Of a DNA stretch of 64,000 nt, positions 6,599 to 15,898 are shown one piece after another. The notes beneath the pieces were generated by a model. The model did no database searches and was not told the DNA's origin. It was given only the letters and a program-made list of their open reading frames with translations. The position numbers and the translations under genes are program-made. How positions within the stretch are numbered: the stretch's first letter is position 1; the number at the start of each line of letters is the position of its first letter. The stretch comes from Rhodobacter sp. NTK016B. GTDB taxonomy: Bacteria > Pseudomonadota > Alphaproteobacteria > Rhodobacterales > Rhodobacteraceae. The stretch spans positions 124,001-188,000 of the forward strand of contig NZ_JAFKOK010000005.1 in the NCBI RefSeq assembly GCF_017303295.1. The letters run 5' to 3'.

Positions 6599-7867
6599 TT
6601 ACTCGGCGGCGTTCAGCATCGCCGGGCTGTCGATCAGCCCTTCCAGATAATCCGAGATCGCGCGGGCGATGGCGCGCTTGTCATCGACCGGCGTCACGCC
6701 GTCCGATGTCACCATCAGCGCGCGCTGATCGGTGCCGCGCGTATCCTCGCCCCGCGTAGCGACGACCAGACCCGCGCGGTCCAGCCGTTTCGACGCGACG
6801 CGGACCAGCTCTTCTTCGGTCACGCCTTCGAGATACTTGAACGCGACCGTATGCATTCGCGTATCCGCGTTCATCGCAAGGTCGATCACCTTCTCGGTCG
6901 GTTCCAGATCCAGCGTCAGGCTGGACTGGCCCGAGGCGATCTTGCCGGTGACCGCCTGACGCGGACGGTAATCCGCCACCCCGGCCGAGAACACGCCCGC
7001 CCAGAGCCCCGATTTCACCCGCGCGACGACGGTATCGCGATACTCGTCAAAGGTGCGGGTCACGGTGATCGGCATCGGGGTCTTGGGCCGCCACGCGCCG
7101 TCGCCGAGGATCAGCTCGGTTTCGGCGCCGCGCCAGACCAGCTCTTCGGCCAATTGCGCGCCCAGACGGCCCCGAAAGCGGTTGACGATCCGGCGGACGC
7201 CGTCGATCGGAACCGGGGTCGGACCGGCGGTAACCATGATCCGGCGCCCCTGCAGCGGCGACTCGCTCAGCGCACGCCCCACGGCGATGCACAGGAACTC
7301 GGTCGAGGGCAGGTTGTGCTTGCCATAGGCGTCACGCGGCGCGATCAGCTGAACGCCCTGAGCCGCCAGCCTGCGCGCGTTGTCGACAAGCTGAGCGTTG
7401 TGCATGGTGCCATGCATCGTCGGCGCGACCAGCACCTTGGTGCGGCCCTGTTCCATCCGGCCCAGAGCCGAGATCAGCGTCGAGGTGACGACGGTGTCGC
7501 CGATCCCGTGCGCCATCTTGGCGATGGTCGAATGAGTTGCCGGGGCAACAAGGTAGGCATCAAAAGGCTGCTCGTCGCTGAGATGCTCGGCGCGCCAGGT
7601 CAGGCCGGTCACGACCGGACCCAGCGTGGCCCATTCCAGCGCCTCGCGCGCGACGTAGTTCAGCGCGTCCTCGCTGGCGAAAGCGGTGACGCTGGCCCCG
7701 TGCCGGCGCAGACCGCGCGCCAGTTCGGGGGTCTTCATCGCCGCGATGCCGCCGGTCACGAGCAGCGCGATGCGCTTGCCCGCCAGCCGGTCCGAGGCCC
7801 GTGGCACGTCGTGGTCGCCCATGGACGAGGGCGTCGGGGCGCCAAAGTCCCAGTCGTAGATGCTCAT
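6599..7867 (-). CDS. divergent CoaBC-like flavoprotein (PPC decarboxylase-like + PPC synthetase-like)
   Basis: 422 residues with the CoaBC two-domain order: an HFCD flavoprotein domain (about 28-195; VTGGIAAMK at 37-45, a candidate catalytic His95, APATHST at 108-114, PTMHGTMHN at 149-157) and a CoaB-like domain (about 207-410; VTAGPT, NRFRGRLG, SAGVADYRP, GKIAS). CoaBC makes 4'-phosphopantetheine from phosphopantothenate and cysteine. Differences from the usual enzyme are marked: the PxMN motif reads PTMH, the usual ACGxxGxGRM clamp is replaced by a segment around AYGKHNLPSTEF, and VAND near the end reads VATR. It overlaps the upstream transglutaminase-like gene by 4 bases (ATGA). It is either a variant CoaBC or a paralogue acting on another cysteine or peptide substrate; I favour the paralogue. 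Confidence 0.8.
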   Translation of the reverse strand: MSIYDWDFGAPTPSSMGDHDVPRASDRLAGKRIALLVTGGIAAMKTPELARGLRRHGASVTAFASEDALNYVAREALEWATLGPVVTGLTWRAEHLSDEQPFDAYLVAPATHSTIAKMAHGIGDTVVTSTLISALGRMEQGRTKVLVAPTMHGTMHNAQLVDNARRLAAQGVQLIAPRDAYGKHNLPSTEFLCIAVGRALSESPLQGRRIMVTAGPTPVPIDGVRRIVNRFRGRLGAQLAEELVWRGAETELILGDGAWRPKTPMPITVTRTFDEYRDTVVARVKSGLWAGVFSAGVADYRPRQAVTGKIASGQSSLTLDLEPTEKVIDLAMNADTRMHTVAFKYLEGVTEEELVRVASKRLDRAGLVVATRGEDTRGTDQRALMVTSDGVTPVDDKRAIARAISDYLEGLIDSPAMLNAAE

Positions 7868-8925
7868 GCGCTGGCCTCGCTCCCGGTGACGGACTCGGCG
7901 GCCGAGCCCAGCCAGCGCAGATGCACGCCGCGTGCCCGGTCGACATGCGTGTTGAGCGCTTCGAAATGCCGGGTCTCGAACCGGCTTTTCTTGCCCATCT
8001 CACCGGCGATCGAGTCGACGACGGAGATGTCGAACAGATCCTTGTGCTGGATTTCCAGACAGGGAATGTAAGGCGCGCCCTCGGTCAGGACCGGCTCTTC
8101 GCGATGGGCCATCCACGGGAACATTTCCAGGAAGATGCGGTAGCTGGCGTAGTCATAAGACGAATCCACGCCGTGCCAGACACCATTCAGCTTCACCGCG
8201 GCGAAGTAGTGGCGAACGGTCGGGCGCTGCAGCGCCAGCCAGCTCGATGGCATCAGCTTGCCCAGAACCGAGGTCGGCATCGGCACTTCGACGAAGCCCG
8301 CTTCCAGACCGGCGGCGCGCATCAGGGCAACCTGAAGGTTGGTTTTGGTCGTGCACATGCCAACGCCACGCTTCAGCGTGTCCGAGGCGCGTTCCTGCCA
8401 CGCGCCGAAGCGATAGGGGAAACCGTGCACGAATTTCAGGATCGCCTCGGCGGTGCTGACGGGCGACGCGCGGCGCAGGCGCGCGGCCTGACGGCGGATT
8501 TCCGGGTGGTCGACGTCGCAAAGCGAATCGGCCTCGGGCAGTTCAGGGGCCGGAGTCGCGGCGGCTTCGGCCAGCGAGGCGGCCATCAGAGCCTTGGTCA
8601 GACCACGACGCAGATCCATCGGCAGGGTCGTGGTATCCACCACCCAAACCCGCGCAGGACGGTCCAGCGCCTGCAGCGCGCAATCCGCCTCACCGAAATG
8701 GTTGCCGGGTCCGAACCAATCCGTGGTGCCCGCAAGGCGGCCATCCAGCACCACATGAAGTGGCGAGTTCGTGTCCGTGGGCAAGATGTCGCCCGCTTCA
8801 AGATAATCGATCGTCCCGAAGCTGAACAGTTCCGCCTCTCGCCCGGGCAGGAACAGCCCGAGGGTAGAGTCTGAAAACATATTCAGCAATTCGGAGTTGT
8901 ATTTGTCGAAAGCAGCTACCTGCAT
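7864..8925 (-). CDS. cNMP-binding-like domain fused to transglutaminase-like domain
   Basis: 353 residues, soluble. The N-terminal 110 or so residues look like a cyclic-nucleotide-binding fold: LFLPGREAELFSF, HVVLDGRLAG, GNHFGEADCALQALDRPARV, the last matching the phosphate-binding cassette FGE...R-A. Residues about 135-300 look like a transglutaminase/cysteine-protease fold with the three expected catalytic positions: Cys191 in GVGMCTTKTNL, His239 in VRHYFAAVK and Asp254 in HGVDSSYD. The fusion suggests a peptidase, amidase or crosslinking activity gated by a nucleotide or similar ligand (inference). ATG 8925 is used rather than TTG 8937, with a weak GGGGG ribosome site. It is first in a two-gene operon with the CoaBC-like gene. 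Confidence 0.78.
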   Translation of the reverse strand: MQVAAFDKYNSELLNMFSDSTLGLFLPGREAELFSFGTIDYLEAGDILPTDTNSPLHVVLDGRLAGTTDWFGPGNHFGEADCALQALDRPARVWVVDTTTLPMDLRRGLTKALMAASLAEAAATPAPELPEADSLCDVDHPEIRRQAARLRRASPVSTAEAILKFVHGFPYRFGAWQERASDTLKRGVGMCTTKTNLQVALMRAAGLEAGFVEVPMPTSVLGKLMPSSWLALQRPTVRHYFAAVKLNGVWHGVDSSYDYASYRIFLEMFPWMAHREEPVLTEGAPYIPCLEIQHKDLFDISVVDSIAGEMGKKSRFETRHFEALNTHVDRARGVHLRWLGSAAESVTGSEASA

Positions 8926-9283: not shown

Positions 9284-10159
9284 ATGGATGTGTTGCAACT
9301 GCTGTTGAGCGGGCTCGCCAACGGCTGTGTCTACGGCCTCGTGGCCTTGGGATTCGTGCTGATCTACAAGGCAACCGAAGCCGTCAATTTCGCGCAGGGC
9401 GATTTCATGATGCTCGGCGCGTTCGTCATGGTGGGGCTGGTGAACCCCCATTTCATGGGATTGAATTTCTGGCTGGCGGTACCGATCGCGCTGCTGATCA
9501 TGGGGGCGCTGGGCTATCTGCTGGATCTTGCCGTGCTGCGGTTCATGTTCGGACAGAGCCAGACGGCGGTGGTGATCCTGACGATCTCGCTGGGTTTCGT
9601 GATCCGCTTCATTGCTGGCGTGATCTGGGGCCATGAGCCGCAAAGCCTGCATTCCCCGCTGGCACTGGGCGACGTTCGGTTCGGCGGCGTAGTCTTGTCG
9701 CTGGCCGATATCGCGGTGATCGTCGTCACGCTGCTGATGACCCTGGCGCTGTGGCAGTTCTTTCAGCGCACCAAGCTGGGTCTGGCGATGCAGGCCGCGT
9801 CGCAAAACCAGATGGCCGCCTATTACATGGGTATCCCCGTGAAGCGGGTTCAGGGCGCCGTCTGGGCGCTGGCCGGGATCGTCGCCTGCGTGGCGGGGAT
9901 TCTCTACGCTTCGAAAGGGGCGATCGACATTTCGTCCGGGTTCATCGGTATCAAGGCCTTCGCTGCAGCGGTGATCGGCGGCTTCGGAAGCCTGCCGGGC
10001 GCGTTGATGGGCGGTATCATCGTCGGCGTGATCGAACCCTTTGCCGCGCGCTATCTGCCCACCGGCTATTCGCAGATCGCCCCCTACGCGATTCTCATCT
10101 TCGTGCTGGTGTTCCGGCCGCACGGGCTGTTCGCGCAAGTCCGCGTCAAGAAGGTCTGA
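9284..10159 (+). CDS. LivH-type ABC transporter permease
   Basis: 291-residue inner-membrane permease of the hydrophobic amino acid uptake (HAAT) family. It begins with the typical LivH N-terminus (MDVLQLLLSGLANGCVYGLV), followed by about eight hydrophobic segments, the GLAMQAASQNQMAAYYMGI cytoplasmic loop that contacts the ATPases, and the KAFAAAVIGGFGSLPGAL motif near the C-terminus. A GGGAGG ribosome site precedes the ATG. It opens an operon of six genes (permeases, two ATPases, acyl-CoA ligase, binding protein). HAAT systems import branched-chain amino acids, amides or aromatic and dicarboxylic acids; the ligase downstream argues for an organic acid here. Confidence 0.9.
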   Translation: MDVLQLLLSGLANGCVYGLVALGFVLIYKATEAVNFAQGDFMMLGAFVMVGLVNPHFMGLNFWLAVPIALLIMGALGYLLDLAVLRFMFGQSQTAVVILTISLGFVIRFIAGVIWGHEPQSLHSPLALGDVRFGGVVLSLADIAVIVVTLLMTLALWQFFQRTKLGLAMQAASQNQMAAYYMGIPVKRVQGAVWALAGIVACVAGILYASKGAIDISSGFIGIKAFAAAVIGGFGSLPGALMGGIIVGVIEPFAARYLPTGYSQIAPYAILIFVLVFRPHGLFAQVRVKKV

Positions 10160-10163
10160 GTCC

Positions 10164-11243
10164 ATGCGTTTTCATTTCAAGACATCGTACGATCAGGACA
10201 TCCGGCTGTTCCCCGACTGGTGGAACTTCTCGCTCTACCTTGCGCTGTTGCTTCTGATGCTGGTGCTGCCGTGGCTGATCGACGGCTTTTATCTGGGCGA
10301 AGTCACCAACGTACTGATCTGGGCGGTCGCCGGTCTGGGGCTGATGCTGCTGACCGGGCAGACCGGGCAGGTGAGCCTCGGACATTCGGCCTTCATGGCG
10401 CTGGGCTGTTATTCCTGCGTGAACTTCATGGAGCTGGGGCTGCCCTTTCTTGCGGCCTTCCTGCTGGCGGGCGTGGTGACCGGGATCATCGGCGCGATCA
10501 TCGCGATTCCGGCACTCAAGCTGCACGGCGTGTATCTGGCGATCTTCACGCTGGCGCTGGCAATTCTGGCCGACGACCTGATCGTCATCCTCGAGCCCTG
10601 GACGGGCGGCGTGAACGGCTATTTCGCCCCGGTGATCGAGATCTTCGGCATCGAGATCAACCGCTGGGCCGCGCCCGAGACGTGGTATTACCTCGCGCTG
10701 GGCACATCGGTCTTCGTCGCGCTGCTGTATCGCAACCTGCTGCGCTCGCCCCTTGGCCGCGCTTTCGCCGCCGTTCGGGATTCCGAGATTTCCGCGCAGG
10801 CGATGGGCGTGGACGTGGCGCGCACCAAGACGATGGCTTTCGGGCTGTCCTGTGCCTTTGCGGGCCTTGGCGGGGCGCTGATGGGCCTGTTCGCGGGGGC
10901 CTTCAACAACGAGACCTTCAACTTCCTCATCGCGATCCAGCTTCTGATGATGATCATCATCGGCGGTCTGGGCTTTATCCACGGCGCGTTTCTGGGCGCC
11001 ATCGTCATCGCCTTCCTGCCGCAATTCCTGTCGATCCTGACCGACAATCTGGGCTCGGCCTCGATCCCCGGTCTGGAAACCGGCGTGTTCGGCATGATCC
11101 TGATCGCCTTCATCTTGTTCGAGCCGATGGGCCTGTACGGACGCTGGCTGAAGATGCGCACATGGCTTGAGCTGTTCCCCTTCGCCCGCCGCGACATGTT
11201 CCGTCGCCAGAAAACCTATCTGAAGACGGAGCGCCTGAGATGA
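10164..11243 (+). CDS. LivM-type ABC transporter permease
   Basis: 359-residue second permease of the HAAT importer, starting 4 bases after the first. About nine hydrophobic segments are visible. Family motifs are GQTGQVSLGHSAFMALGCY in the first third, GRAFAAVRDSEISAQAMGVD (the EAA-like loop that docks the ATPase) near residue 205, and FLIAIQLLMMIIIGGLGFIH further on. The C-terminal tail is charged (RRDMFRRQKTYLKTERLR). Its stop codon overlaps the next ATG (ATGA), so expression with the ATPase is probably coupled. Confidence 0.9.
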   Translation: MRFHFKTSYDQDIRLFPDWWNFSLYLALLLLMLVLPWLIDGFYLGEVTNVLIWAVAGLGLMLLTGQTGQVSLGHSAFMALGCYSCVNFMELGLPFLAAFLLAGVVTGIIGAIIAIPALKLHGVYLAIFTLALAILADDLIVILEPWTGGVNGYFAPVIEIFGIEINRWAAPETWYYLALGTSVFVALLYRNLLRSPLGRAFAAVRDSEISAQAMGVDVARTKTMAFGLSCAFAGLGGALMGLFAGAFNNETFNFLIAIQLLMMIIIGGLGFIHGAFLGAIVIAFLPQFLSILTDNLGSASIPGLETGVFGMILIAFILFEPMGLYGRWLKMRTWLELFPFARRDMFRRQKTYLKTERLR

Positions 11244-12040
11244 GCCTGCTTGAACTCGACGGCGTCACGCTGAAATTCGGCGGCGTCACGGCGGTGAACA
11301 ACCTGTCGATGTCGGTCAACGAAGGCGAGGTCTTCGCGCTGGTCGGCCCGAACGGAGCGGGGAAATCCACCGTTTTCAACATGATCTCGCGGTTCTACCG
11401 GCCGGTTCGCGGCTCGATCCGGTTCGATGGCGGTGATCTGCTGACACACCGCGCGCATGAGATCGCCAATCTGGGCATCGCGCGCACCTTCCAGAATATC
11501 GAGCTGTTCGAGCGTGCCACGGTGCTGGAGAACCTGCTGGTCGGACGGCATCGGCACCGGCGCTCGACCCTGCCCGAGCAATTGTTCTTCACCGGCCGCG
11601 TGCGCGCGGAAGAGCGCGCGCACAGGCTTGCGGTCGAGGAGGTGATCGATTTCCTCGATCTTCAGGTCTACCGCGACAAGATGATCGCCGGGCTGCCTTA
11701 CGGCGTGCGCAAGGTGGTGGAACTGGCGCGCGCGCTGGCGACGAAACCGCGCCTGTTGCTGCTGGACGAACCGGCCTCGGGGCTCAGCGTCGAGGAAACG
11801 CAGGACATGCGCTGGTGGATCGACGACATCCGGCGGCAGATGGGCATCACGGTGCTGATGGTCGAGCATGACATGGGCCTTGTGTCCAAGGTCTGCGATC
11901 GGGTGCTGGCGCTGGCCGATGGCGCGAAACTGGCCGAGGGCACGCCCGCCGAGGTTCAGTCGCATCCGGCGGTGATCGAGGCCTATCTGGGCACCTCGGC
12001 GGTGTCGAAGACCGCGAATGCACAGGGAGAGCGGATATGA
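11240..12040 (+). CDS. LivG-type ABC transporter ATP-binding protein
   Basis: 266-residue cytoplasmic ATPase. Walker A is GPNGAGKST (about residue 36), the Q-loop is in IARTFQNIELF, the family's unusual signature reads GLPYGVRKVVELARAL (LivG proteins have YG-x-R/Q instead of LSGGQ), Walker B is LLLLDEPASGL and the switch His is in MVEHDMGLV. The extended C-terminus (LAEGTPAEVQSHPAVIEAYLG) is also typical. It works with the second ATPase, encoded next with a 4-base ATGA overlap, to drive the permease pair. Confidence 0.92.
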   Translation: MSLLELDGVTLKFGGVTAVNNLSMSVNEGEVFALVGPNGAGKSTVFNMISRFYRPVRGSIRFDGGDLLTHRAHEIANLGIARTFQNIELFERATVLENLLVGRHRHRRSTLPEQLFFTGRVRAEERAHRLAVEEVIDFLDLQVYRDKMIAGLPYGVRKVVELARALATKPRLLLLDEPASGLSVEETQDMRWWIDDIRRQMGITVLMVEHDMGLVSKVCDRVLALADGAKLAEGTPAEVQSHPAVIEAYLGTSAVSKTANAQGERI

Positions 12041-12807
12041 GCGCACTTCTTGAGGTCAACAATCTGGAAACCTTCTATGGCCCGATCATGGCCATTCGCG
12101 GCGTCAGCCTCGAGGTTCGCAAGGGGCAGGTCGTCACCGTGCTGGGCGCGAACGGCGCAGGGAAGACGACGCTTCTAAAGACCATTTCGGGGATCATGGA
12201 CCCGGAAAAGGGCCAGATCCTGTTCGAAGGCGAACAGATACAGGGCCGCGAGCCGCATCAGGTGGTGCGGCGCGGTATCGTGCAGGTTCCCGAAGGGCGC
12301 GAAGTCTTTCCGCTGCTCACGGTCGAGGAAAATCTCAGCCTCGGGGCCTATACCCGGTCGGACCGCGCCGAGATCGCGCGCGACCGGGATCTGGTCTTCA
12401 GCTATTTCCCGATCCTTGCCGAGCGGCGCGAGCAGGAAGCGGGCACGCTGTCGGGCGGTCAGCAACAGATGCTGGCGATCGGGCGTGGGCTGATGCTGCG
12501 GCCCAAGATCATGCTGCTGGACGAGCCGTCGCTGGGCCTGTCGCCGCTTCTGACGCAGGAAATTTTCGACATCCTGCGGCGTCTGAACAAGGATGAAGGC
12601 GTCACCATGATGCTGGTCGAACAGAATGCCGCCGTGGCGCTGGATCTGGCCGATCAGGGCTACGTGATGGAACTGGGCCGCATCGTCATGGCCGACACCG
12701 CCGAAAAGCTGGCCGCATCCGAGGACATTCAGAGCTTCTATCTGGGCCACGCGAACGAGGGCGCGCGGGGCGAGCGGCGTTGGAAGAAAAGGAAGACGTG
12801 GCGATGA
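12037..12807 (+). CDS. LivF-type ABC transporter ATP-binding protein
   Basis: 256-residue ATPase. It has Walker A GANGAGKTT, the LivF-specific RGIVQVPEGREVFPLLTVEENL, the signature TLSGGQQQMLAIGRGLM, Walker B IMLLDEPSLGL and the switch region MLVEQNAAVAL. The C-terminal tail past about residue 235 (HANEGARGERRWKKRKTWR) is unusually basic and longer than in many LivF proteins; it overlaps the beginning of the ligase gene. It pairs with the upstream LivG-type ATPase. Confidence 0.92.
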   Translation: MSALLEVNNLETFYGPIMAIRGVSLEVRKGQVVTVLGANGAGKTTLLKTISGIMDPEKGQILFEGEQIQGREPHQVVRRGIVQVPEGREVFPLLTVEENLSLGAYTRSDRAEIARDRDLVFSYFPILAERREQEAGTLSGGQQQMLAIGRGLMLRPKIMLLDEPSLGLSPLLTQEIFDILRRLNKDEGVTMMLVEQNAAVALDLADQGYVMELGRIVMADTAEKLAASEDIQSFYLGHANEGARGERRWKKRKTWR

Positions 12808-14666
12808 GCGGAGAGAAGATTCTCAAAGGCGTTCGTGTCAATGCCGAGCCCGGCCAGCGCCCGATCCGCATCGACGGCCATGTCACGGTGCCCGCGCTGC
12901 TGCGCGCGCGCTGTCAGGAAAACGGCATGGCCACCGCGCATCGCGAAAAGGATCTGGGCATCTGGCAGACCTATAGCTGGAACGACTATCTGACCAGCGC
13001 GCGGTTGATCGGCATGGGCCTGCGGGCGCTGGGCCTGCAGCGGGGCGACGCGATTTCCATCCTGTCCGAGGACAACAAGGAATGGATGTATATCGACATG
13101 GCCGCGCAATGCATGGGCGCGATCTCGTCGGGGGTCTATACCACCGACAGCGCCCAGCAGCTGGCCTATCTGGTCAATGACAGCGAAACCAAGTTCCTGT
13201 TCGTCGAGAATGACGAGCAGCTCGACAAGTTCCTCGAAGTCGCGGGCCAGATGCCGTCGCTCGAAAAGGTCATCATCCTTGACCCCGAGGGGCTGCACGA
13301 CTTCGCGCATGAGAAATGCCTGTTCCTCGACGATCTTTACGATCTGGGCCGCCGTCACGACGACGAGGCCATCTTCAACGCCGAGATCGACAAGGCGAAA
13401 CCCGATGATGTCTGCGTGCTGATCTATACCTCGGGCACAACCGGCCAGCCCAAGGGCGTTCAGCTGACGCAGGAAAACATCATGGCGGGGATGGAATGCT
13501 CGCTCTCGGGGCTGGGCTTCGAGAAACGCGCCGAGCAGCTGTGTTTCCTGCCGCTGTGCCATATCCTTGAGCGGATCGTGTCGCTGTATACGCCGCTGAT
13601 CGTGTCCTCGACGGTGAATTTCGCCGAAAGCCCGGAAACCGTGTTCGACAATCTGCGCGAGATTTCGCCGCATGGTTTCGTCGCCGTGCCGCGCGTGTGG
13701 GAAAAGATCTATTCGCGCGTTCTGGTCATGGCGCAGGAATCCACCGCTTTGGGCCGCTGGGCCTTCGGGCAAGCGATCAAGGCCGGGCGCGCGCGGGCCG
13801 ATTACCTTCTCGATGATAAGCCGGTGCCGTCGGGTGTCGCGCTGCGCTACAGGGTCTGGGATTTCCTGGTGCTGGCCAATCTGCGGCGGATGTTGGGCAT
13901 GGACCGGATCCAGCGCGGCCTGACCGGCGCCGCGCCGATCTCGCCCGACTTGCTGCGCTGGTATCACGCGATCGGCGTGCCGCTTTACGAAGGCTTCGGC
14001 ATGTCCGAGACGGCGGGCGTCGCCACCATCAACCTGCCCGAGGCGAATGCCACAGGCTCGGTCGGGCGCCCCAATCCCGGCGTTCAGGTGCGCCTCTCGG
14101 CTGAAGGCGAGATACAGCTCAAGGGGCTCAATATCTTCAAGGGCTATCTCAACAAGCCCGACAAGACCGCCGAGGCCTTTACCGAGGACGGCTGGCTGAG
14201 AACCGGCGATGTCGGGCGTATCGACAATCAGGGCTTCCTGACCATCACGGGCCGCATCAAGGACATCATCATCACCGCCGGCGGCAAGAATATCACGCCC
14301 GCCGAGATCGAGAGCCGGCTGAAATTCAGCCATTACATCAGCGATGCGGTGATCATCGGCGACCGGCGCAAATATCTGACCTGCCTGATCATGATCGATC
14401 AGGAGAATGTCGAGAAATACGCGCAGGACCACAAGGTTCCGTTCAGCGACTTCCGCTCGCTGTGCCGGGCCGAGCCGGTGCTCGATCTGATCCGCGCCGA
14501 GGTGGACGCGGTCAACAAGGAGTTCGCGCGCGTCGAGCAGATCAAGGATTTCCGCCTGATCGACGTGCTTCTGACGGCCGAGGATGAGGAGCTTACGGCC
14601 ACGATGAAGCTGAAACGCGCAACCGTCGAAACGCGCCACAAGGCGCTGATCGACGCGATGTATTGA
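12804..14666 (+). CDS. AMP-forming acyl-CoA synthetase/ligase
   Basis: 620-residue cytoplasmic enzyme of the ANL superfamily, which activates a carboxylic acid with ATP and joins it to CoA. The P-loop-like motif YTSGTTGQPKG is at about residue 214, GFGMSETAGVATINLP follows, then LRTGDVGRIDNQGFLTITGR (the hinge) and the late catalytic-lysine region (ATMKLKRATV). The length and style resemble long-chain FadD15-like ligases. It is embedded in the ABC importer operon between the LivF-type ATPase and the binding protein, starting on an ATGA overlap; alternative starts are GTG 12798 and TTG 12780. The linkage suggests imported acid is trapped as a CoA thioester. Substrate chain length cannot be told from sequence by eye. 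Confidence 0.9.
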   Translation: MSGEKILKGVRVNAEPGQRPIRIDGHVTVPALLRARCQENGMATAHREKDLGIWQTYSWNDYLTSARLIGMGLRALGLQRGDAISILSEDNKEWMYIDMAAQCMGAISSGVYTTDSAQQLAYLVNDSETKFLFVENDEQLDKFLEVAGQMPSLEKVIILDPEGLHDFAHEKCLFLDDLYDLGRRHDDEAIFNAEIDKAKPDDVCVLIYTSGTTGQPKGVQLTQENIMAGMECSLSGLGFEKRAEQLCFLPLCHILERIVSLYTPLIVSSTVNFAESPETVFDNLREISPHGFVAVPRVWEKIYSRVLVMAQESTALGRWAFGQAIKAGRARADYLLDDKPVPSGVALRYRVWDFLVLANLRRMLGMDRIQRGLTGAAPISPDLLRWYHAIGVPLYEGFGMSETAGVATINLPEANATGSVGRPNPGVQVRLSAEGEIQLKGLNIFKGYLNKPDKTAEAFTEDGWLRTGDVGRIDNQGFLTITGRIKDIIITAGGKNITPAEIESRLKFSHYISDAVIIGDRRKYLTCLIMIDQENVEKYAQDHKVPFSDFRSLCRAEPVLDLIRAEVDAVNKEFARVEQIKDFRLIDVLLTAEDEELTATMKLKRATVETRHKALIDAMY

Positions 14667-14710
14667 AACATCAAGACAGGGCCCTCGTGGCCCGAGAAGG
14701 GGAGGAAGAC

Positions 14711-15898
14711 ATGAAGACCAAGTTTATGATCGCCGCCGCCATCATGGCCGTGGCCGGCACAGCGGGCGCGCAGACGCGCGGCGTCACCGACAGCGAGATC
14801 CTGATCGGCGGCGCGCATGACCTGTCGGGCGTGTTCGCGGCGGTGTCGACCCCGGCGGTGAACGGCGCCAACCTGTTCTTCGAGCAGGTCAATGCGAATG
14901 GCGGCGTGCATGGCCGTCAGATCCGCTACATCACCGAGGATCACGGGTATCAGCTGCCGCGCGCGACGCAGGCCTATAACAAGCTGATCGAGCGCGACGG
15001 CGTCTTTGCGATGCTGCTCAATCTGGGCACGCCGCATAACCTTGCGCATTACCCGCTGATGGAGCGCCGCGGCGTTCCCAATATCAGCCCGCTGACCGCC
15101 GCGCGGGCGATCCTGCCCGAGCCGCCGGGCATGAACTTCGTCGCGTTCTCGAGCTATTACGATCAGGTGCAGGCGGGGATCGAGTATCTGAATGCCGAGA
15201 CCGGCGCGACCAATGTCTGCGCGATGTACCTGCCCACCGATTTCGGCGAAGAGATCGCGACGTCGTCGCGCGAAGCGGCCGAACGTCTGGGGCTGAACTT
15301 CGTCGATGAGACCACGCACCGCCCCGACGAGCAGGACTTCGTCGGCGCTGTCAGCCGTCTGCGCGATGCGGGCTGCCAGATCATCACGCAGGCTCTGGGC
15401 GTGCGGGCCGGGATCACGGTCGTCGGCACCGCCAAGCGGCTGGGTTGGGAAGACGCGATGTTCCTGACCACCTCGGCCGGGTTCCTCGAGCCGGTGGCGA
15501 TGGTGCCGGGCGGCGTGACGGACGGGCTTTATGCCTCGTCGGGCTGGCAGGATCTCTATGCCCGCGCGAACGAGGAGGCGCCCGCCGCCTTCATCGAAGC
15601 CTATCAGGCGCGCTACGACCAGCCCGCTTCGGGCTTCGCGATGCTGGGCTACACGGCGGCGCAGAACCTCGTGATGGCGCTGGAAGAGGCCGGGCCTGAC
15701 CTGACCACCGAGAACTTCGTGGCGGCGATGGAATCGCTCGATTTCGATGACGCGCTTCTGGGCACGCATGTCAGTTACGGCGCCGATCATCAGGGGTCGA
15801 ACGACATCTTCATCAGTCAGGTCGGCGACGGCGCATGGCACACCATCGCCCGGATCGACGGCGATACGATGGAAATGGTCGATATGACCGGCGAGTGA
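14711..15898 (+). CDS. periplasmic substrate-binding protein of the Liv-type importer
   Basis: 395 residues with a Sec signal peptide (MKTKFMIAAAIMAVAGTAG, cleavage near AGA-Q). The mature start (RGVTDSEILIGGAHDLSGVF) and YNKLIERDGVFAMLLNLGT are characteristic of type I (LivJ/LivK, Peripla_BP_6) binding proteins, which close on the ligand between two lobes. A good ribosome site (GGAGGA) precedes ATG 14711. It is the last gene of the operon and ends in a strong terminator. Its ligand is unknown; association with a CoA ligase argues against plain leucine, isoleucine or valine uptake. Confidence 0.9.
   Translation: MKTKFMIAAAIMAVAGTAGAQTRGVTDSEILIGGAHDLSGVFAAVSTPAVNGANLFFEQVNANGGVHGRQIRYITEDHGYQLPRATQAYNKLIERDGVFAMLLNLGTPHNLAHYPLMERRGVPNISPLTAARAILPEPPGMNFVAFSSYYDQVQAGIEYLNAETGATNVCAMYLPTDFGEEIATSSREAAERLGLNFVDETTHRPDEQDFVGAVSRLRDAGCQIITQALGVRAGITVVGTAKRLGWEDAMFLTTSAGFLEPVAMVPGGVTDGLYASSGWQDLYARANEEAPAAFIEAYQARYDQPASGFAMLGYTAAQNLVMALEEAGPDLTTENFVAAMESLDFDDALLGTHVSYGADHQGSNDIFISQVGDGAWHTIARIDGDTMEMVDMTGE

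Follow-up and report, generated by a model that had tools for sequence, protein, structure and literature searches.

A divergent CoaBC-like flavoprotein encoded with a transglutaminase-like protein: a candidate phosphopantothenoylcysteine decarboxylase in Rhodobacterales

The window analyzed here, a stretch of 64,000 nucleotides, belongs to a genome of 4.84 Mb in 86 contigs and carries two overlapping genes on its reverse strand, whose products we call P0001 and P0002 (Table 1). Both open reading frames, along with the ATGA shared by the stop of one and the start of the other, are present in the sequence as the first-pass annotation had noted. Among named organisms, Pararhodobacter species have the genes most similar to the pair, with P. 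marinus at 92% for P0002, and the source is accordingly taken to be a Pararhodobacter-like bacterium of the Rhodobacterales. In a search of the titles and abstract openings of open-access literature, no account of the P0001/P0002 pair was found.

Table 1. Features at the locus, in window coordinates
Feature	Position	Strand	Basis
P0001, divergent CoaBC-like flavoprotein, 422 aa	6599..7867	-	Pfam, TIGR00521, fold match
P0002, degenerate cNMP-binding-fold and transglutaminase-like domain, 353 aa	7864..8925	-	Pfam, relatives, model
ATGA stop/start overlap of P0001 and P0002	7864..7867	-	ATG of one and TGA of the other share 4 bases
LIV-type ABC transporter genes, AMP-binding acyl-CoA ligase, periplasmic binding protein	9284..15898	+	

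The arrangement of the two genes is well preserved. Outside one clade, discussed below, that lacks the CoaC half of canonical CoaBC, every row (16 of 16, from 15 distinct loci) has the identical 4-base overlap; within that clade, a 12-bp gap is present at all six loci. The 22 P0001 rows represent 21 distinct loci, the L005 and L030 proteins being identical. This recurrence means that the pairing is not a matter of chance. Across the order, P0001 is present in 5 of 292 genomes (E 1e-60 or better) and P0002 in the same five (E 1.5e-100 or better), with weak P0002 matches in 16 further genomes, the best of which reaches 8.3e-10. In a genus designated g64, 10 of 37 genomes have P0001, and these ten are also the ones with P0002. 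Of 299 genomes drawn across the phylum, the window's own was the sole one with P0001 at E 1e-50. A genome collection searched with P0002 yielded 10 Pararhodobacter-type loci, all with P0001 and P0002 adjacent. Four Geobacter-type loci (L035-L038) encode P0002 relatives and no P0001 within the loci fetched, and each of these four genomes has one canonical CoaBC match. The collection was scanned with P0002 as the query and P0001 was searched in sampled genomes, so P0001 relatives may exist outside the sampled groups.

The surroundings of the pair vary between genera. The LIV-type transporter operon, in which the second permease and two ATPases were named from their sequences, is divergent from the pair in 11 of 11 Pararhodobacter-type loci, including the window, with its first permease gene next to the pair. 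In g64 all nine loci compared have serC-serA near the pair, the tenth (L146) falling outside the comparison; the names serA, serC, htpX, chaN-like, dut, and moeB are likewise tentative, sequence-based assignments. The LIV operon genes had no match near the pair in the G134 and G258 loci (19.0 and 18.5 kb), and the eight further g64 loci, two of them short at 4.6 and 8.9 kb, gave just weak ABC-ATPase matches (29-32%), in L141. Among ORFs of at least 100 aa, four clusters are common to Pararhodobacter-type and g64 loci: P0001, P0002, one ABC ATPase (from L141 alone in g64, at about 30% identity), and an ORF pair from L033 and L142. The P0002 of L140 was found by tblastn and is absent from this ORF comparison. 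The transporter and acyl-CoA ligase operon was considered as a part of the unit and set aside; it adjoins the pair in Pararhodobacter-type genomes alone and is probably outside it. P0001 and P0002 co-occur in g64 and stay adjacent while their neighborhood differs by genus, and they are thus a tight two-gene unit, as had been proposed from the window.

P0001 has the build of a CoaBC. The Pfam Flavoprotein (3.4e-22) and DFP (7.2e-27) families match it in CoaBC order, with residues of about 30 to 200 forming a CoaC-like HFCD domain and residues 205 to 410 a CoaB-like domain. Its match to the TIGR00521 CoaBC model (6.8e-59, 199.9 bits) lies below the equivalog cut-off of 219.7, in keeping with its original description as a divergent PPC decarboxylase/synthetase. 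The AlphaFold model has a mean pLDDT of 76, dropping below 50 at residues 1-19 and 296-322, and its best fold match is the CoaBC of Mycobacterium smegmatis in complex with CTP and FMN (2.6e-20, TM-score 0.50); TvaF and SpaF are also among the matches. An N-terminal tail is conserved (DWDF..APTPS.MGDHDVP), in a part of the model with low confidence. In an unrooted tree that sampled 9 of the 22 P0001 rows, a very long branch separates these from each of the 14 canonical rows, and the tree program warns of long branches. P0001 falls outside the group formed by the six canonical rows from Rhodobacterales (100/100), on which basis a recent origin by duplication of that order's CoaBC was rejected.

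A second simple explanation, that P0001 is the essential CoaBC of the organism, is excluded by a canonical CoaBC elsewhere in the window's genome (contig C85, 403 bits). PF02441 has four matches over cut-off there, namely P0001, the canonical CoaBC, and two others, with a weak fifth. Across the 292 genomes, 290 have a CoaBC match over cut-off, and five have a best E near 1e-55 to 1e-59 (G134, G258, G006, G241, and G281). In G006, G241, and G281 the CoaC part lies inside a frame of 530-547 aa and is not lost, so the two genomes under cut-off are taken to be G134 and G258. The corresponding loci of those three genomes, all of genus g7 (L104, L101, and L103, respectively), contain two TIGR00521 matches each, and the long frame is probably an insertion inside CoaBC.

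The active site of the CoaC-like domain is a mixture of retained and altered residues. H95 is invariant in 14 of 14 rows and aligns with the canonical catalytic His (H75 in E. coli). The second Met of the PXMNXXMW motif is retained and the motif Asn is absent, as PTMH replaces PAMN in 22 of 22 rows. The flap is 6 residues shorter than in canonical proteins and lacks its Cys in 22 of 22 rows, there is a 7-residue insertion, and a Cys at about position 193, past the flap, is present in every row (22/22). In published work on AtHal3a, the His (H90), Asn, and Met act in the first step and the Cys in the second (PMC9604783), and neither AtHal3a nor yeast PPCDC can do without the Asn of the motif or the Cys of the flap (PMC9604783, PMC6168597). 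The same departures occur in proteins considered active by annotation or description: M. smegmatis CoaBC (6TGV) has PAMH and an aligned flap without Cys, and a Phocaeicola CoaBC has PAMD and a flap without Cys. The departures alone therefore do not exclude activity for P0001. In the CoaB-like domain, N229, D299, and K309 are kept in 14 of 14 rows, while AAET is lost, AND has become ATR, KxKK has become K-I-x-S, and the long loop is shorter.

P0002 is divided into a region of cNMP-binding fold at about residues 15-120 and a transglutaminase-like domain at about 140-335. The latter matches Transglut_core (PF01841) at 3.8e-7, with 30.8 bits against a gathering score of 23, and all 18 aligned rows, of which two are identical, preserve its predicted C191, H239, and D254 triad. 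The AlphaFold model (mean pLDDT 86) matches a transglutaminase-like protease at 1.6e-6 and many cNMP domains at E 5e-5 to 4e-4. Whole-chain TM-scores are low (0.20-0.28 by query) because each match spans one domain, and domain by domain the model agrees with both folds of the first-pass annotation. A PDB sequence search with P0002 found no relative, and a profile-based PDB search with its family gave one weak match (E 0.022). Of the four Pfam families expected in the pair, Flavoprotein, DFP, and Transglut_core were recovered; PF00027, the cNMP-binding family, had no match when the P0002 sequence was scanned.

The suggestion that P0002 is gated by a nucleotide is not borne out. The fold is present, but the pattern of the phosphate-binding cassette, GE[LIMV][AG]...R[AST][AST], matched none of 22 Rhodobacterales rows, of which 21 are informative; the remaining row, G609, is truncated by the end of its contig and lacks this part. 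The pattern matched in three of four Geobacter-type relatives, and PF00027 matches the two of these that were scanned (2.8e-10 and 1.2e-13). In L035 (7809-11306), from a Desulfuromonadales MAG, about 40 bp separate the cNMP-transglutaminase gene from a following gene for a CHASE2 and class III cyclase protein, an arrangement that resembles a cyclase paired with a transglutaminase under its cNMP control. From the cassette counts and this gene order, nucleotide control is plausible in the Geobacter-type relatives and, judging from sequence, was probably lost in the Rhodobacterales P0002. In two Geobacter-type loci, the cNMP-transglutaminase gene follows a large ORF that is GlnE by Pfam (L036:4487-9215) or an ORF of similar size (L037:4662-9107).

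These features bear on the idea that the pair is a cyclic-nucleotide-controlled stress or defense unit whose likeness to CoaBC is incidental. The cNMP fold of P0002 and the placement of the L035 gene directly before a cyclase gene fit this idea, as does the PADLOC PycC model, which matches the L035 cyclase part (1.6e-31) and, weakly, the cNMP part of the neighboring L035 transglutaminase protein (8e-6). However, neither P0001 nor P0002 has a PADLOC match, the cassette is unmatched in the Rhodobacterales rows, and plasmid and phage searches with P0002 found no copy. We regard a stress or defense role of this kind as highly improbable. A plasmid search with P0001 returned 53 records, all below 60% identity among the matches listed (15 of the 53).

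The strongest indication of function comes from g64. Four of its genomes (G586, G611, G614, and G616) have P0001 and a full canonical CoaBC. In six others (G134, G258, G587, G588, G609, and G610; completeness 99, 100, 99, 100, 94, and 85%, respectively), P0001 is accompanied by the canonical CoaB half alone and the CoaC half is gone. In all six, P0001 is the sole PF02441 match at E 0.1. The usual CoaB motifs are still present in the remaining CoaB gene, judging by the one at L061, and compared with G291, a g64 genome with an intact coaBC and neither P0001 nor P0002, the flanking gene order is the same and the CoaC part alone is missing. Full canonical CoaBC is present in 25 of the 27 g64 genomes without P0001. 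The other two were excluded from these 25: G592, in which CoaC and CoaB pieces lie at contig ends and CoaC is present by PF02441 search, and G593. In the latter (90% complete), neither TIGR00521 (at 1e-15) nor PF02441 nor P0002 finds a match, which may reflect an incomplete assembly. A second match of CoaB length alone thus occurs in 6 of 10 P0001 carriers. It occurs in none of the 25 genomes that lack P0001 and match coaBC in full (Fisher's test, p 1.3e-4, uncorrected for kinship). The six genomes form one clade (99/99), indicating a single loss of CoaC that was kept through the divergence of six species, so on the tree the association has an n of 1.

CoA synthesis is universal, and to our knowledge the CoaC step is performed by one well-kept enzyme family. 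With CoaB kept and CoaC lost, 4'-phosphopantothenoylcysteine (PPC) should still be made in this clade and a decarboxylase should be needed. P0001 is the only candidate of known fold found in the CoaC-less genomes, in a pathway search that covered CoaBC and PF02441, and is probably a working PPC decarboxylase despite its missing Asn and Cys. This suggests that the pair, left alone after the loss of CoaC, is able to do that essential step, and it gives substance to the link with CoA metabolism that had been guessed from the window. Alternatively, the clade may depend on pantetheine salvage or on a PPC decarboxylase of another family that lacks PF02441.

Selection on the two genes is purifying. 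In a first run over 14 of 22 loci, P0001 dN/dS was 0.05-0.15 by domain and group: the CoaC-less clade lies at 0.05-0.07, and the Pararhodobacter-type loci and the g64 loci with canonical CoaBC at 0.10-0.15. We take this as evidence that P0001 is under constraint. Constraint is weakest in the N-terminal domain of P0002 (0.17-0.29). A second run, over 9 of 10 g64 loci and without pairs whose dS was 0.2 or less or not computable, gave 0.118 for P0001 overall versus 0.059 in the CoaC-less clade, and 0.092 versus 0.058 for the P0002 transglutaminase domain. The controls are mixed, as serA is flat (0.056 in other g64 and 0.052 in the CoaC-less clade), serC also falls (0.074 to 0.044), and htpX was computable in the CoaB-only group alone. 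There is thus only a hint of increased constraint on P0001 in the CoaC-less clade, with a drop that is only partly specific.

Taken as a whole, the genome comparisons point toward a role in biosynthesis, at the decarboxylation of PPC. The reading we favor, with some confidence, is that P0001 represents a second CoaBC of deep divergence, that its HFCD domain works as a PPC decarboxylase, and that it is made together with the transglutaminase-like cysteine hydrolase P0002. The FMN of P0001 would oxidize the thiol of PPC, His95 would act as in known PPC decarboxylases, and CO2 would leave to give 4'-phosphopantetheine. Most carriers would use P0001 beside a canonical CoaBC, and in the one g64 clade whose canonical CoaC half is deleted, P0001 would carry the decarboxylation.

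It is also conceivable that both domains of P0001 are active and that it is a full alternative CoaBC, perhaps for another nucleotide or other redox conditions. Purifying selection acts on both domains, and the K-I-x-S Lys loop is like that of streptococcal CoaB, whose families match the C-terminal end of P0001. This would be at odds with the altered CoaB motifs and the shorter loop described above, and with the retention of canonical CoaB in 6 of 6 CoaC-less genomes, as if P0001 replaces the decarboxylase alone. We consider a full CoaBC improbable; the altered motifs and the retained CoaB suggest that P0001 provides a decarboxylase rather than a synthetase.

A further explanation is that P0001 is an HFCD flavoenzyme acting on a cysteinyl amide or peptide, like EpiD or TvaF, with P0002 as a peptidase or amide-forming partner and with the CoaC-less clade relying on another PPC decarboxylase or on pantetheine salvage. 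EpiD decarboxylates oxidatively and leaves the enethiol as its product, and the missing Cys of the reduction step in P0001 would fit such an enzyme. The fold matches to TvaF and SpaF point the same way, and CoA synthesis leaves the transglutaminase partner unexplained. The locus comparison covered ORFs of 100 aa or more, a size above that of short precursor peptides. Yet P0001 keeps the two-domain layout of CoaBC with conserved CoaB Asn229, Asp299, and Lys309, its match to NCBIfam CypD is just E 0.018 (14.3 bits, below a 215-bit cut-off), and in the CoaC-less clade CoaB is retained and P0001 is the lone PF02441 match. Action on another substrate therefore seems unlikely to us.

The part played by P0002 is less clear, and the decarboxylase model requires no role for it from these data. 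P0002 could act in the same pathway, for example by hydrolyzing or transferring a pantetheine-type amide or by modifying the N-terminal tail of P0001, but we hold this as doubtful. Even more speculative is an alternative two-protein phosphopantetheine route able to replace canonical CoaC, in which P0002 would take part in the chemistry or its control, perhaps by transferring an amide to or from a pantothenoyl group bearing cysteine or cysteamine. The pairing with P0001 connects the hitherto unstudied cNMP-transglutaminase proteins with a defined pathway, and a second CoaBC family that apparently replaced CoaC in one clade offers a natural test of which active-site residues PPC decarboxylation needs.

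Among known systems, the transglutaminase-like cysteine protease of Cytophaga hutchinsonii (3ISR) is the best fold match to P0002 and shares its PF01841 family and Cys-His-Asp residues; unlike proteases of this type, P0002 is fused to a cNMP-fold domain. The Geobacter-type proteins have the same two-domain layout at about 30% identity but differ from P0002 in their matched cassette (3/4) and in lacking P0001 in the fetched loci. In the yeast Hal3/Cab3 split PPCDC, not every polypeptide carries all of the catalytic residues (PMC9604783). P0001 resembles these proteins in its incomplete catalytic set, although no second PF02441 protein to supply the Cys was found in the CoaC-less genomes. The M. 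smegmatis CoaBC (6TGV), a solved example of the bifunctional enzyme, also has His in the motif (PAMH; PTMH in P0001) and a Cys-free flap. Bifunctional CoaBC (Dfp; TIGR00521) shares with P0001 its domain order, HFCD fold, catalytic His, and the CoaB Asn, Arg, Asp, and first Lys. P0001 departs from it in its score below cut-off, very long branch, altered CoaB motifs, 7-residue insertion, 6-residue flap deletion, conserved N-terminal tail, and the transglutaminase-like partner that accompanies it at each P0001 locus examined.
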